Both the position numbers and the translations under genes were made by a program. Shown piece after piece: positions 3,840 through 29,894 of a stretch of 46,681 nt of DNA. The DNA is taken from the NCBI GenBank assembly GCA_021824625.1, contig JAKAKE010000052.1, positions 1-46,681 on the forward strand. Direction: 5' to 3'. How positions within the stretch are numbered: position 1 is the first letter of the stretch; each line of letters begins with the position of its first letter. The notes under the pieces are model-generated. The model had not been told where the DNA came from and did no database searches. It saw nothing but the letters and a program-made list of their open reading frames with translations. This stretch comes from Bacteroidota bacterium. GTDB lineage: Bacteria > Bacteroidota > Ignavibacteria > Kapaibacteriales > UBA2268.

Positions 3840-4070
3840 ATGAAAACATTTTCAAGAATAGAACTAAATCCGGCAGTAATGGGGGGGAAACCCTACATTA
3901 AAGGGACAAGGGTTACAGTTGGTACAATTGTTGGATTAATTGCGTCCGGTGCTTCTTTTGAAAGCATACTAAAGGATTATCCATATTTGAAAAATGAAGA
4001 TATTACCGAAGCACTTGAATATGCTGCTTGGAGAACATCTGAAGTTGAAGTCGAATTAGAACCTGCATGA
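3840..4070 (+). CDS. DUF433 antitoxin-like protein (orphan)
   Basis: A 76-aa protein with the DUF433 signature: NPAVMGGKPYIKGTRVTV, then a GLIASGASFESILKDYPYL segment and LEYAAW. DUF433 is a small winged-helix/VapB-like fold usually paired with a downstream PIN-like (DUF5615) toxin. Here the stop overlaps an ATG (ATGA at 4067) that opens only a 14-codon frame (MKFNYSLIFTSMID), so no complete partner toxin follows. It is the first of several toxin-antitoxin pieces. The family assignment is strong; a role as an active antitoxin without a partner is uncertain. Confidence 0.9.
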   Translation: MKTFSRIELNPAVMGGKPYIKGTRVTVGTIVGLIASGASFESILKDYPYLKNEDITEALEYAAWRTSEVEVELEPA

Positions 4071-4132
4071 AGTTTAATTATAGTTTAATTTTTACGTCAA
4101 TGATCGATTGAAAGAAAACGCTTACAAATATT

Positions 4133-4315
4133 TTAATATGCAGTATCTAACTGCTTTTCTTTTTCTTTCCTTTCTTTGAAAAAATGATATAATTCACTTT
4201 CCTTTGATTTTTTATCTAATAATTCCAATAACTTCTTGAAGTCTCCACCTGCTTCTTCAATAAATTTATTTCTTATATCTCTTTGAAATTTTACACAATC
4301 GAATGTCTTAGTCAT
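4133..4315 (-). CDS. small partner of PIN toxin, putative antitoxin
   Basis: About 60 residues, charged and helical (MTKTFDCVKFQRDIRNKF... ending KEKEKQLDTAY), with no recognised DNA-binding fold. The start is the ATG at 4315, which has a strong GGAGGTGA ribosome site inside the end of the PIN gene; a TTG six bases upstream is also possible. The two frames overlap by 8 bp (ATGACTAA), so translation is probably coupled. A short acidic/basic helical protein immediately after a PIN gene suggests an antitoxin that wraps the toxin. This is inferred from position and size. Confidence 0.75.
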   Translation of the reverse strand: MTKTFDCVKFQRDIRNKFIEEAGGDFKKLLELLDKKSKESELYHFFKERKEKEKQLDTAY

Positions 4316-4769
4316 TGTCAATCACCTCCCTTGGAGTACGGATTTCTAATGGTTGATAATCAAGCATCAGGTTAATAGAATTATAAATATGAATCCTCCT
4401 AAGATTTACAATATGTTTAAAATTCCAACTCACCAGAACATCTGCCTTATTAACTGTAGCCATAGCTATATGCAAAGCATCTTCCTGATATTTTATTGAA
4501 ATTGCATGATGTTCAATGTATTTTGAGGCAAGAGATTCAGCTTCATCATTTTTATCAATATATTCAACCAAATTCTTAGGAATTTCTTTAATTTTATTTT
4601 TTACATAATCAGGTGCTGGTTCTATCTCAGTAGTAGTAACATCAGAAATCATCGCAATTAACTTACCTGAAACAAACAAATCAAATAGTTTGTTCGACCA
4701 CTCCTGAAACTCTTCGTCAAAGCAGCCGCCGATTACCGATGTATCAATATATATTCTTGGTTTATGCAT
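4308..4769 (-). CDS. PIN-domain ribonuclease toxin (VapC-like)
   Basis: A PIN-domain protein of about 153 residues starting at the ATG at 4769 (MHKPRIYIDTSVIGG); a TTG two codons upstream is less likely. PIN acidic residues are visible: the D of YIDTSV near the N-terminus, an acidic residue in the TTTEIE segment, and the EDALHIAMA segment followed by VLVSWNFKHI, the usual C-terminal PIN pattern. PIN toxins are Mg2+-dependent endoribonucleases. It precedes its putative antitoxin, the reverse of classical vapBC order. Likely an active toxin-antitoxin module. Confidence 0.9.
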   Translation of the reverse strand: MHKPRIYIDTSVIGGCFDEEFQEWSNKLFDLFVSGKLIAMISDVTTTEIEPAPDYVKNKIKEIPKNLVEYIDKNDEAESLASKYIEHHAISIKYQEDALHIAMATVNKADVLVSWNFKHIVNLRRIHIYNSINLMLDYQPLEIRTPREVIDND

Positions 4770-28835: not shown

Positions 28836-29894
28836 CTATTCTGATTTTTTGAATTTTGAACCTTTACCCTTTGAATTTCTATCTCGTGAACCCCTGTCTC
28901 TTGATTTTCTATTAAGTTGACCTCTATCACCCCGAGTATCTCTGCCTATTGGAGGCCTGTCCAGTGGTCCTCTGTCTCCTCTCGAATCACTTCCTCTTGG
29001 ACTTCTGTCACGTGAATCACTATCTCTTGAATTTCTTCCTCTTGAATCTCTGTCTCTAGAATCCCTGTCTCCTCTGGAACTACGGTTTCGTGAATCCCTA
29101 CCTCTCGGCTTAAAATCTCTCCTGTCCCTGTCGCCGCCAAATCTTGGTTTTGGCTTATAATCCCTCTCCCTTGTCTCGGTAAAATAATTTCCTTCAAATA
29201 CAATTACAAACTCTCCCTTGAAATTCAGGCTTCTGAATTTTTCATATAGTTCGCTGAATGTTCCGTAATGATTTGTCTCGAAGTGCATGGTCAGGTTGCA
29301 TCCAATGTAAGCGCGCCTGTTGGGCATAAGCTTAGATGCGGCTTCGAGAACACCCATAAGCCTGTATGGTGCCTCCATCAGAACGACAGTTCTTTTCTCG
29401 TCTCTGAGATGTTTCAATTGCCACATTCTGTCTTCGCTGTTTCGACTTAAAAATCCTGCATAAAGAAAAGTGTTAAGTGAAAATCCGCTTTTTACAATTG
29501 CCGCCATCAAGCTTGATGCTCCCGGCACTACTTCAATGTGGTAATTTCTACGTATTGCTGTTTTTACTAACAGAAAACCCGGGTCGGCAAATACCGGTGT
29601 ACCGCAGTCAGAAATTAAAGCAAGCCTTTTACCTTCTTCAAGCAGTGCAATAATATCCTGGGTTTTCTTTTCTTCATTCTGCTCGTTCAACTCCTCAATT
29701 TCACATGACAGGTTGTTTTTTCTTAACAATTTGATTGCCGGTTTAGCTTCTTCACACACAACCAAATCACAATTTTTAAGGACTCTCAAAGCTCTGACAC
29801 TTATATCTTCATCGTTTCCAATTGGAGTTGATACTATATAAAGTACGCCTTGCTTTTTCTCTTCTTCCTCGGGAGTTTTAATTCTTTTTACCAT
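28836..29894 (-). CDS. RsmI-like tetrapyrrole-methylase-family enzyme with Arg/Asp/Ser-rich tail
   Basis: A 352-aa protein. Residues 1-240 form a class III SAM methylase related to RsmI (16S rRNA C1402 2'-O-methyltransferase): GVLYIVSTPIGNDEDISVRALRVL, LISDCGTPVFADPGFLLV, VEVVPGASS-type loop and GEFVIVFEGN. The usual CEDTR motif is changed to VCEEAKPAIKLL, a form seen in a second RsmI-like branch of Bacteroidota, so the exact target is uncertain. Residues 245-352 are a low-complexity tail of SRDRDS/RGD-type repeats with a basic end (KGKGSKFKKSE), not part of RsmI. A disordered RNA-binding or condensate-forming role is plausible but inferred. Confidence 0.9.
   Translation of the reverse strand: MVKRIKTPEEEEKKQGVLYIVSTPIGNDEDISVRALRVLKNCDLVVCEEAKPAIKLLRKNNLSCEIEELNEQNEEKKTQDIIALLEEGKRLALISDCGTPVFADPGFLLVKTAIRRNYHIEVVPGASSLMAAIVKSGFSLNTFLYAGFLSRNSEDRMWQLKHLRDEKRTVVLMEAPYRLMGVLEAASKLMPNRRAYIGCNLTMHFETNHYGTFSELYEKFRSLNFKGEFVIVFEGNYFTETRERDYKPKPRFGGDRDRRDFKPRGRDSRNRSSRGDRDSRDRDSRGRNSRDSDSRDRSPRGSDSRGDRGPLDRPPIGRDTRGDRGQLNRKSRDRGSRDRNSKGKGSKFKKSE

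Follow-up and report, generated by a model that had tools for sequence, protein, structure and literature searches.

The window, a 46,681-nucleotide stretch of DNA from a member of the Bacteroidota, contains on its minus strand a gene (28836..29894) whose 352-residue product resembles the 16S rRNA methylase RsmI followed by a long arginine-rich tail. This raises two questions: whether the gene encodes the RsmI of this cell, and whether the tail is a local repeat expansion or a lasting part of the enzyme. The gene is defined by its open reading frame, by matches to PF00590 and TIGR00096 and by orthologues in most of the near-complete genomes of the order.

Relationship of the window gene to RsmI

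PF00590 is the single Pfam domain of the protein (residues 18-216), and the NCBIfam model for RsmI, TIGR00096, scores 191.2 bits over residues 17-239, which passes its equivalog cut-off of 167.9. The tetrapyrrole-methylase-type catalytic domain was assigned to residues 17-236 (29187..29846, minus strand) from these two models, an AlphaFold pLDDT mostly above 85 and matches in the PDB. In the AlphaFold model, built from a 45-row alignment, pLDDT is about 80-97 over residues 11-240, and the domain is confident up to roughly residue 238; from residue 240 on it is mostly below 50 and secondary structure is absent. The whole-chain rmsd was high, therefore the relative position of the two lobes is unreliable. 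The nearest solved structures, by sequence and by fold alike, are E. coli RsmI (5hw4) and an RsmI-30S complex (9pzg), for which our literature search found no paper. The preliminary description had read this protein as an RsmI-family methylase whose catalytic domain ends near residue 240 and continues into a disordered tail of R, D, S and G, and the end of the TIGR00096 match, the fall in pLDDT and the tail composition all agree with it.

The window genome encodes three PF00590 proteins. On another contig (L002, C169:22213-22866) lies a canonical, tail-less RsmI of 243 residues with EDTR, HEHNE and REISK motifs, which matches E. coli RsmI at 2e-51, as against 1e-36 for the window protein. Since the genome has this canonical copy, the window gene is a diverged RsmI paralogue and not the RsmI of the cell, as which it had also been taken. 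The same arrangement of two copies recurs in nearly every one of 60 relatives: a tail-less canonical protein about 29-40% identical to the window protein, and a second one that is 42-95% identical to it. A maximum-likelihood tree calculated from 84 rows separates the paralogues from the canonical copies by a branch supported at 100/100, and L002 groups with RsmI. By this topology the window gene stands apart from the RsmI of other bacteria and is not a canonical RsmI orthologue. RsmH was found in 13 of 13 genomes tested. Presumably, it is the canonical RsmI that acts on C1402, together with RsmH.

The paralogues also differ from RsmI in three motifs. In the window protein CEEAK (residues 47-51; 29742..29756, minus strand) stands in place of the canonical EDTR region, LNEQNE (residues 69-74; 29673..29690, minus strand) in place of xHEHNE and CNLTM (residues 199-203; 29286..29300, minus strand) in place of R-E-(L/I)-(T/S)-K. 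According to residue counts, Glu49 is present in 41 of 43 order paralogues and Lys51 in all 43, and both are found in six of six further paralogues, whereas canonical and outgroup RsmIs carry Asp at position 49 and Arg at position 51 in 35 of 35 rows. Asn70 occurs in 39 of the 43 order paralogues and the position is also switched in the six further ones; 29 of 35 canonical and outgroup rows have His. The latter rows have Arg at 199 in 34 of 35 cases and Glu at 200 and Lys at 203 in every case, against Cys or Met at 199, Asn at 200 and Met or Leu at 203 in the order paralogues; in the six further paralogues the RELTK region is switched in part only. Judged by these counts, the clade lacks the EDTR, HEHNE and RE(L/I)(T/S)K motifs of canonical RsmI. 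The change to CEEAKP in the active-site region, which had been noted earlier as a reason to doubt the substrate, is thus a signature of the whole clade, and it points to an altered substrate.

The cofactor site is kept. E. coli RsmI contacts AdoMet through I21, T95, I98, D100, A124, Y169, E170, L198 and M228, and R174 is a proposed phosphate contact (PMC5053481). Mapped through the PDB alignment, the contacts correspond in the same order to I25, T99, F102, D104, S128, M173, E174, L201 and a position near 230 of the window protein, and R174 to R178. I25, T99, D104, E174 and L201 are identical to their E. coli counterparts; A124 is replaced by Ser and Y169 by Met, Leu or Phe. Among 31 paralogues I25, D104, R178 and L201 are invariant and T99 is nearly so. 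T99 and D104 lie in the loop TPVFAD (residues 99-104; 29583..29600, minus strand). The AdoMet-contact residues of RsmI are therefore retained, and since they are, catalysis with the same cofactor is likely; the substrate probably fits differently from that of RsmI.

The paralogue is probably old. It is encoded in full by 83 of the 103 order genomes with a completeness of at least 90% (tallied by hand from the table), and 16 of the 20 without it belong to a single family of 19 genomes (f2). Beyond the order, 18 of 19 class-level genomes also encode it in full. In the rest of the phylum, the best matches read carry the canonical AEDTR motif. Among the best 80 loci of a scan of named genomes, a scope that leaves room for rare copies elsewhere, the CEExK kind was seen only in Ignavibacteria, Kryptonia, Kapabacteria and unplaced Bacteroidetes/Chlorobiota MAGs. 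Within those 80 loci the clade would be confined to the class of the window (Kapabacteria, Ignavibacteria, Kryptonia and kin). The nearest named relative, a Candidatus Kapaibacterium MAG with 63% identity, falls inside the family of the window in the tree, and on this ground the order is taken to be that of the Kapabacteria. A separate observation concerns family f2, most of whose genomes also lack the tailed paralogue: in all four f2 genomes read (L136, L137, L138 and L139 in G036, G045, G052 and G059) the canonical RsmI shares one open frame of 399-473 codons with a TadA-like tRNA adenosine deaminase, to whose C-terminal side it is fused.

The disordered tail and its turnover

The tail comprises residues 241-352 (28839..29174, minus strand) and is recognized by its pLDDT, its composition and its retention across the order. 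Its 112 residues include 31 Arg, 19 Asp, 16 Ser, 14 Gly and 9 Lys, with just 4 aromatic residues. The model and composition describe a disordered, basic, mixed-charge and arginine-rich low-complexity region as in GAR/RGG, RS or mixed-charge domain proteins, which form a functional class and not a homology family. RGG boxes are absent from the window tail, number 2-3 in G001 and G003 and reach 12-16 in G013, G043 and G057. An alignment of four congeners showed that the head of the tail (residues 241-264; 29103..29174, minus strand) is its best-conserved part at the genus level.

Of the 52 order paralogues that we read, 49 extend to their 3' end. Among these 49, the tail reaches 30 residues or more in 45 and 80 or more in 31, with a median of 131 and a maximum of 359. 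The preliminary description had proposed that the tail would be a local repeat expansion if relatives lacked it; with such retention this idea falls. The tail is 0-11 residues long in 19 paralogues from outside the order and 1-11 in 21 canonical RsmIs, and it is almost absent in G006 and family f5. The simplest history would be that the order gained the tail once, close to its root, and that f5 and G006 later shortened it.

Although the tail is widely retained, its sequence is replaced from genome to genome. SRDR-type repeats are found in the genus of the window, ERSGGFNRERRPDG in G012, KFGDKKFGDR in G041, GGFGGGERRPGG in L036, where the repeats are related to the RGG-box kind, and an N-rich WNNNRN in G046. 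The composition is more stable: Lys and Arg make up 30% of the order tails and hydrophobic residues 15% on average, and a net positive charge is found in 45 of the 47 unmasked tails that reach 30 residues (a contig end truncates three of the 47), but not in G051 and G046. The net-negative tails comprise G034 (partly masked), G051 (cut by the contig end) and G046 (slightly negative). Opposite charges alternate clearly above chance in 10 of 40 tails, so that alternation was dropped as a general rule. A comparison of G000 with G003 gave a dN/dS of about 0.03 for the domain, a sign of strong constraint, and of about 0.36 for the tail, the latter value being rough due to the alignment of repeats. 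Sequence and length appear to change through repeats that stay in frame, and both composition and reading frame persist. With hydrophobic residues at such a low average and the frame preserved, non-coding read-through is an unlikely origin of the tail.

Such an end is also unusual for the loci concerned. At least 22% Lys/Arg and at most 22% hydrophobic residues in the last 50 positions were found in 36 of the 49 complete order paralogues and in 3 of 208 other ORFs from the same loci; two of these three are tailed paralogues missed by the filter and the third is a purposely fetched DEAD-box helicase. As a query against its own genome the tail matched only itself. A proteome-wide habit was considered and set aside, since such tails are absent from the pseudouridine synthases of the genome, from canonical RsmI and from ordinary neighbouring ORFs.

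Several related architectures were observed in passing. The DEAD-box RNA helicase L198 of the window genome (around C2:35587-36087) has a basic RG/K-rich C-terminal tail of about 50 residues. In G012, a protein with the look of an RluB/RsuA pseudouridine synthase (L146:3712-4842) adjoins the tailed methylase and is extended at its N-terminus by about 140 residues rich in lysine. L036, in the Chlorobiota MAG RYN_334 (around 4001-4666 and downstream), is a 718-codon open frame with an acidic N-terminal extension and about 300 residues of GGFGGG(E/Q)RR(P/E)GG repeats behind the methylase domain. In G034, G046, G051, L217 (G192) and L219 (G212), an acidic D/E block precedes basic repeats, giving a two-part arm.

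At the DNA level, the tail holds an imprecise 15/30/45-nt repeat array (28977..29071, minus strand; TRF) and is overlapped by a second open frame (28946..29203, minus strand; an 85-residue ORF). Both the degenerate repeat and the second frame had been described before and both exist; the meaning attached to the frame does not hold. The alternative frame is open over 75 codons inside the tail, and it is no gene and carries no information, because 62% of shuffles of the tail codons leave it at least as open; it is a by-product of codon usage (AGA, GAT and TCA codons). An overlapping gene, or slippage into the second frame, was rejected on the same grounds. As to a change of tail length by slippage, which had been suggested previously, the tail repeats contain no homopolymer run of six or more, and the sole nearby run is an A6 right where the gene ends. 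The tails of the four congeners, measured from residue 237, are 106, 116, 122 and 151 residues long and differ by whole codons. Because these changes are in frame, single-base slippage is not a likely source, and in-frame duplication is the likely one. Tandem arrays occur in 28 of 47 tails, with periods that are multiples of three except for 16 nt in G001 and 10 nt in G024. Elsewhere in the window, the contig starts with a 137-bp tandem repeat (positions 1-346; 2.5 copies, 96% matches).

Possible roles of the tailed paralogue

We propose, with moderate confidence, that an RsmI paralogue as old as the class acts on rRNA away from C1402 and that an arm gained within the order helps it to bind RNA. 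The paralogue would have arisen prior to the split of the class, and its C-terminal disordered arm would be a subsequent gain, close to the base of the Kapabacteria-type order. The enzyme may still methylate RNA, probably at an rRNA ribose 2'-OH other than that of C1402. By analogy, the most likely role of the tail is RNA or ribosome binding: in yeast, KKE/D regions are needed for efficient rRNA methylation and pseudouridylation and aid accumulation near nascent rRNA (PMC11528048). Potentially, the tail binds RNA weakly and with no strict sequence preference, raising the local concentration of the enzyme on rRNA or pre-ribosomes. If binding is of this kind, selection would preserve charge, disorder and reading frame of the tail, not its order or length. 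Against this role counts that the tail is not indispensable, as the nearly tail-less members G006 and family f5 show. It is tempting to go further and speculate that a fibrillarin-like layout evolved independently in a bacterial order, which concentrates the enzyme on nascent rRNA, perhaps in condensates, for a novel bacterial ribose methylation; we regard this as distinctly doubtful.

Genomic context was tried as a clue to function and given up. The mreB/mreC genes on one side are common to the genus only and the Sua5-type gene on the other side to the genus and G015. No neighbours are conserved beyond close relatives, and the context does not indicate ribosome assembly.

Other explanations have to be weighed against an RNA-binding arm. 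The tail might be mainly a condensation device that acts by self-association or RNA coacervation, a bacterial analogue of the nucleolar compartment. The order tails contain 17.7% Arg and 7.3% Phe plus Tyr, with RGG and GGF enriched over shuffles, the L036 tail resembles the GAR domain of fibrillarin, and that domain has been linked to phase separation (PMC11599257). However, the window tail is poor in aromatic residues, many tails have only 30-70 residues, short for such a role, and charge alternation stands clearly above chance in just 10 of 40 tails; condensation as the main function seems unlikely to us. Slightly more unlikely is that the tail is a nearly neutral, functionless extension in which repeats expand and contract at a tolerant C-terminus. 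Its very fast turnover in sequence and length, and its shortness or absence in a few members, would fit. A neutral extension would hardly be retained across the families of the order with a basic, hydrophobic-poor composition that persists while the repeats are replaced, nor would one expect that no ordinary neighbouring ORF ends likewise, that the canonical RsmI of the same genomes is always tail-less and that dN/dS within the genus is below 1.

Improbable, finally, is that the window protein is a second C1402 enzyme or an inactive copy that merely binds the 30S subunit, even though it passes the RsmI equivalog cut-off and has RsmI and the RsmI-30S complex as its nearest structures. The clade-wide replacement of motifs near-universal in RsmI and the far closer match of the canonical copy to the E. 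coli enzyme argue against a second RsmI, and the retained AdoMet contacts and the low dN/dS of the domain against an inactive copy.

Comparison with known systems

As the paralogues exceed the RsmI cut-off, they may be annotated as C1402 methylases. For this clade such a label is probably wrong, and it would mask an RNA-modification enzyme in its own right that is spread through a class. Here a bacterial enzyme that modifies RNA has acquired a disordered, arginine-rich arm whose composition is kept and whose sequence is not, a clean case from nature in which the tail-less sister enzymes serve as controls. Should the tail bring the enzyme to rRNA, bacteria would have a counterpart to the tails of nucleolar modification proteins, tails that are discussed as a feature of eukaryotes. 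Our literature search, outside which most subscription journals lay, found neither a tailed RsmI paralogue nor a report on RsmI in Kapabacteria.

RsmI (YraL), the 16S rRNA (cytidine-1402-2'-O)-methyltransferase, shares with the window protein the fold family, the domain length, the AdoMet contacts and R178 (E. coli R174). The window protein differs by belonging to a separate clade with EDTR, HEHNE and RELTK replaced, by coexisting with a canonical RsmI and by its disordered C-terminal tail. A C-terminal extension is also seen in some canonical RsmIs from other phyla, where it measures about 60 residues and on inspection looks helical and not of low complexity. Within the same genome, the helicase L198 likewise ends in a basic tail, as a bacterial DEAD-box helicase with a basic RG-type tail, but it is no methylase and its tail is shorter and has no D/S-rich repeats.

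Fibrillarin also combines an enzyme of the rRNA 2'-O-methyltransferase type with an arginine-rich disordered region, its GAR domain, which was described as eukaryote-specific (PMC11599257). Both have tail-less relatives, in archaea for fibrillarin and among the paralogues outside the order for the window protein. However, the domain families are unrelated, the GAR domain is N-terminal and the window tail C-terminal, and there is no sign of the guide RNAs of fibrillarin for the window protein, so that the likeness is an analogy only. The KKE/D regions of eukaryotic snoRNPs similarly place mixed-charge, net-basic disorder on the rRNA-modification machinery (PMC11528048). They are lysine-rich and were shown to raise modification, whereas the window tail is arginine-rich and non-homologous. 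Thus the RsmI-type fold is known, and the novelty would lie in its presence in a separate paralogue that bears an arm of a type met mainly in eukaryotic RNA proteins.
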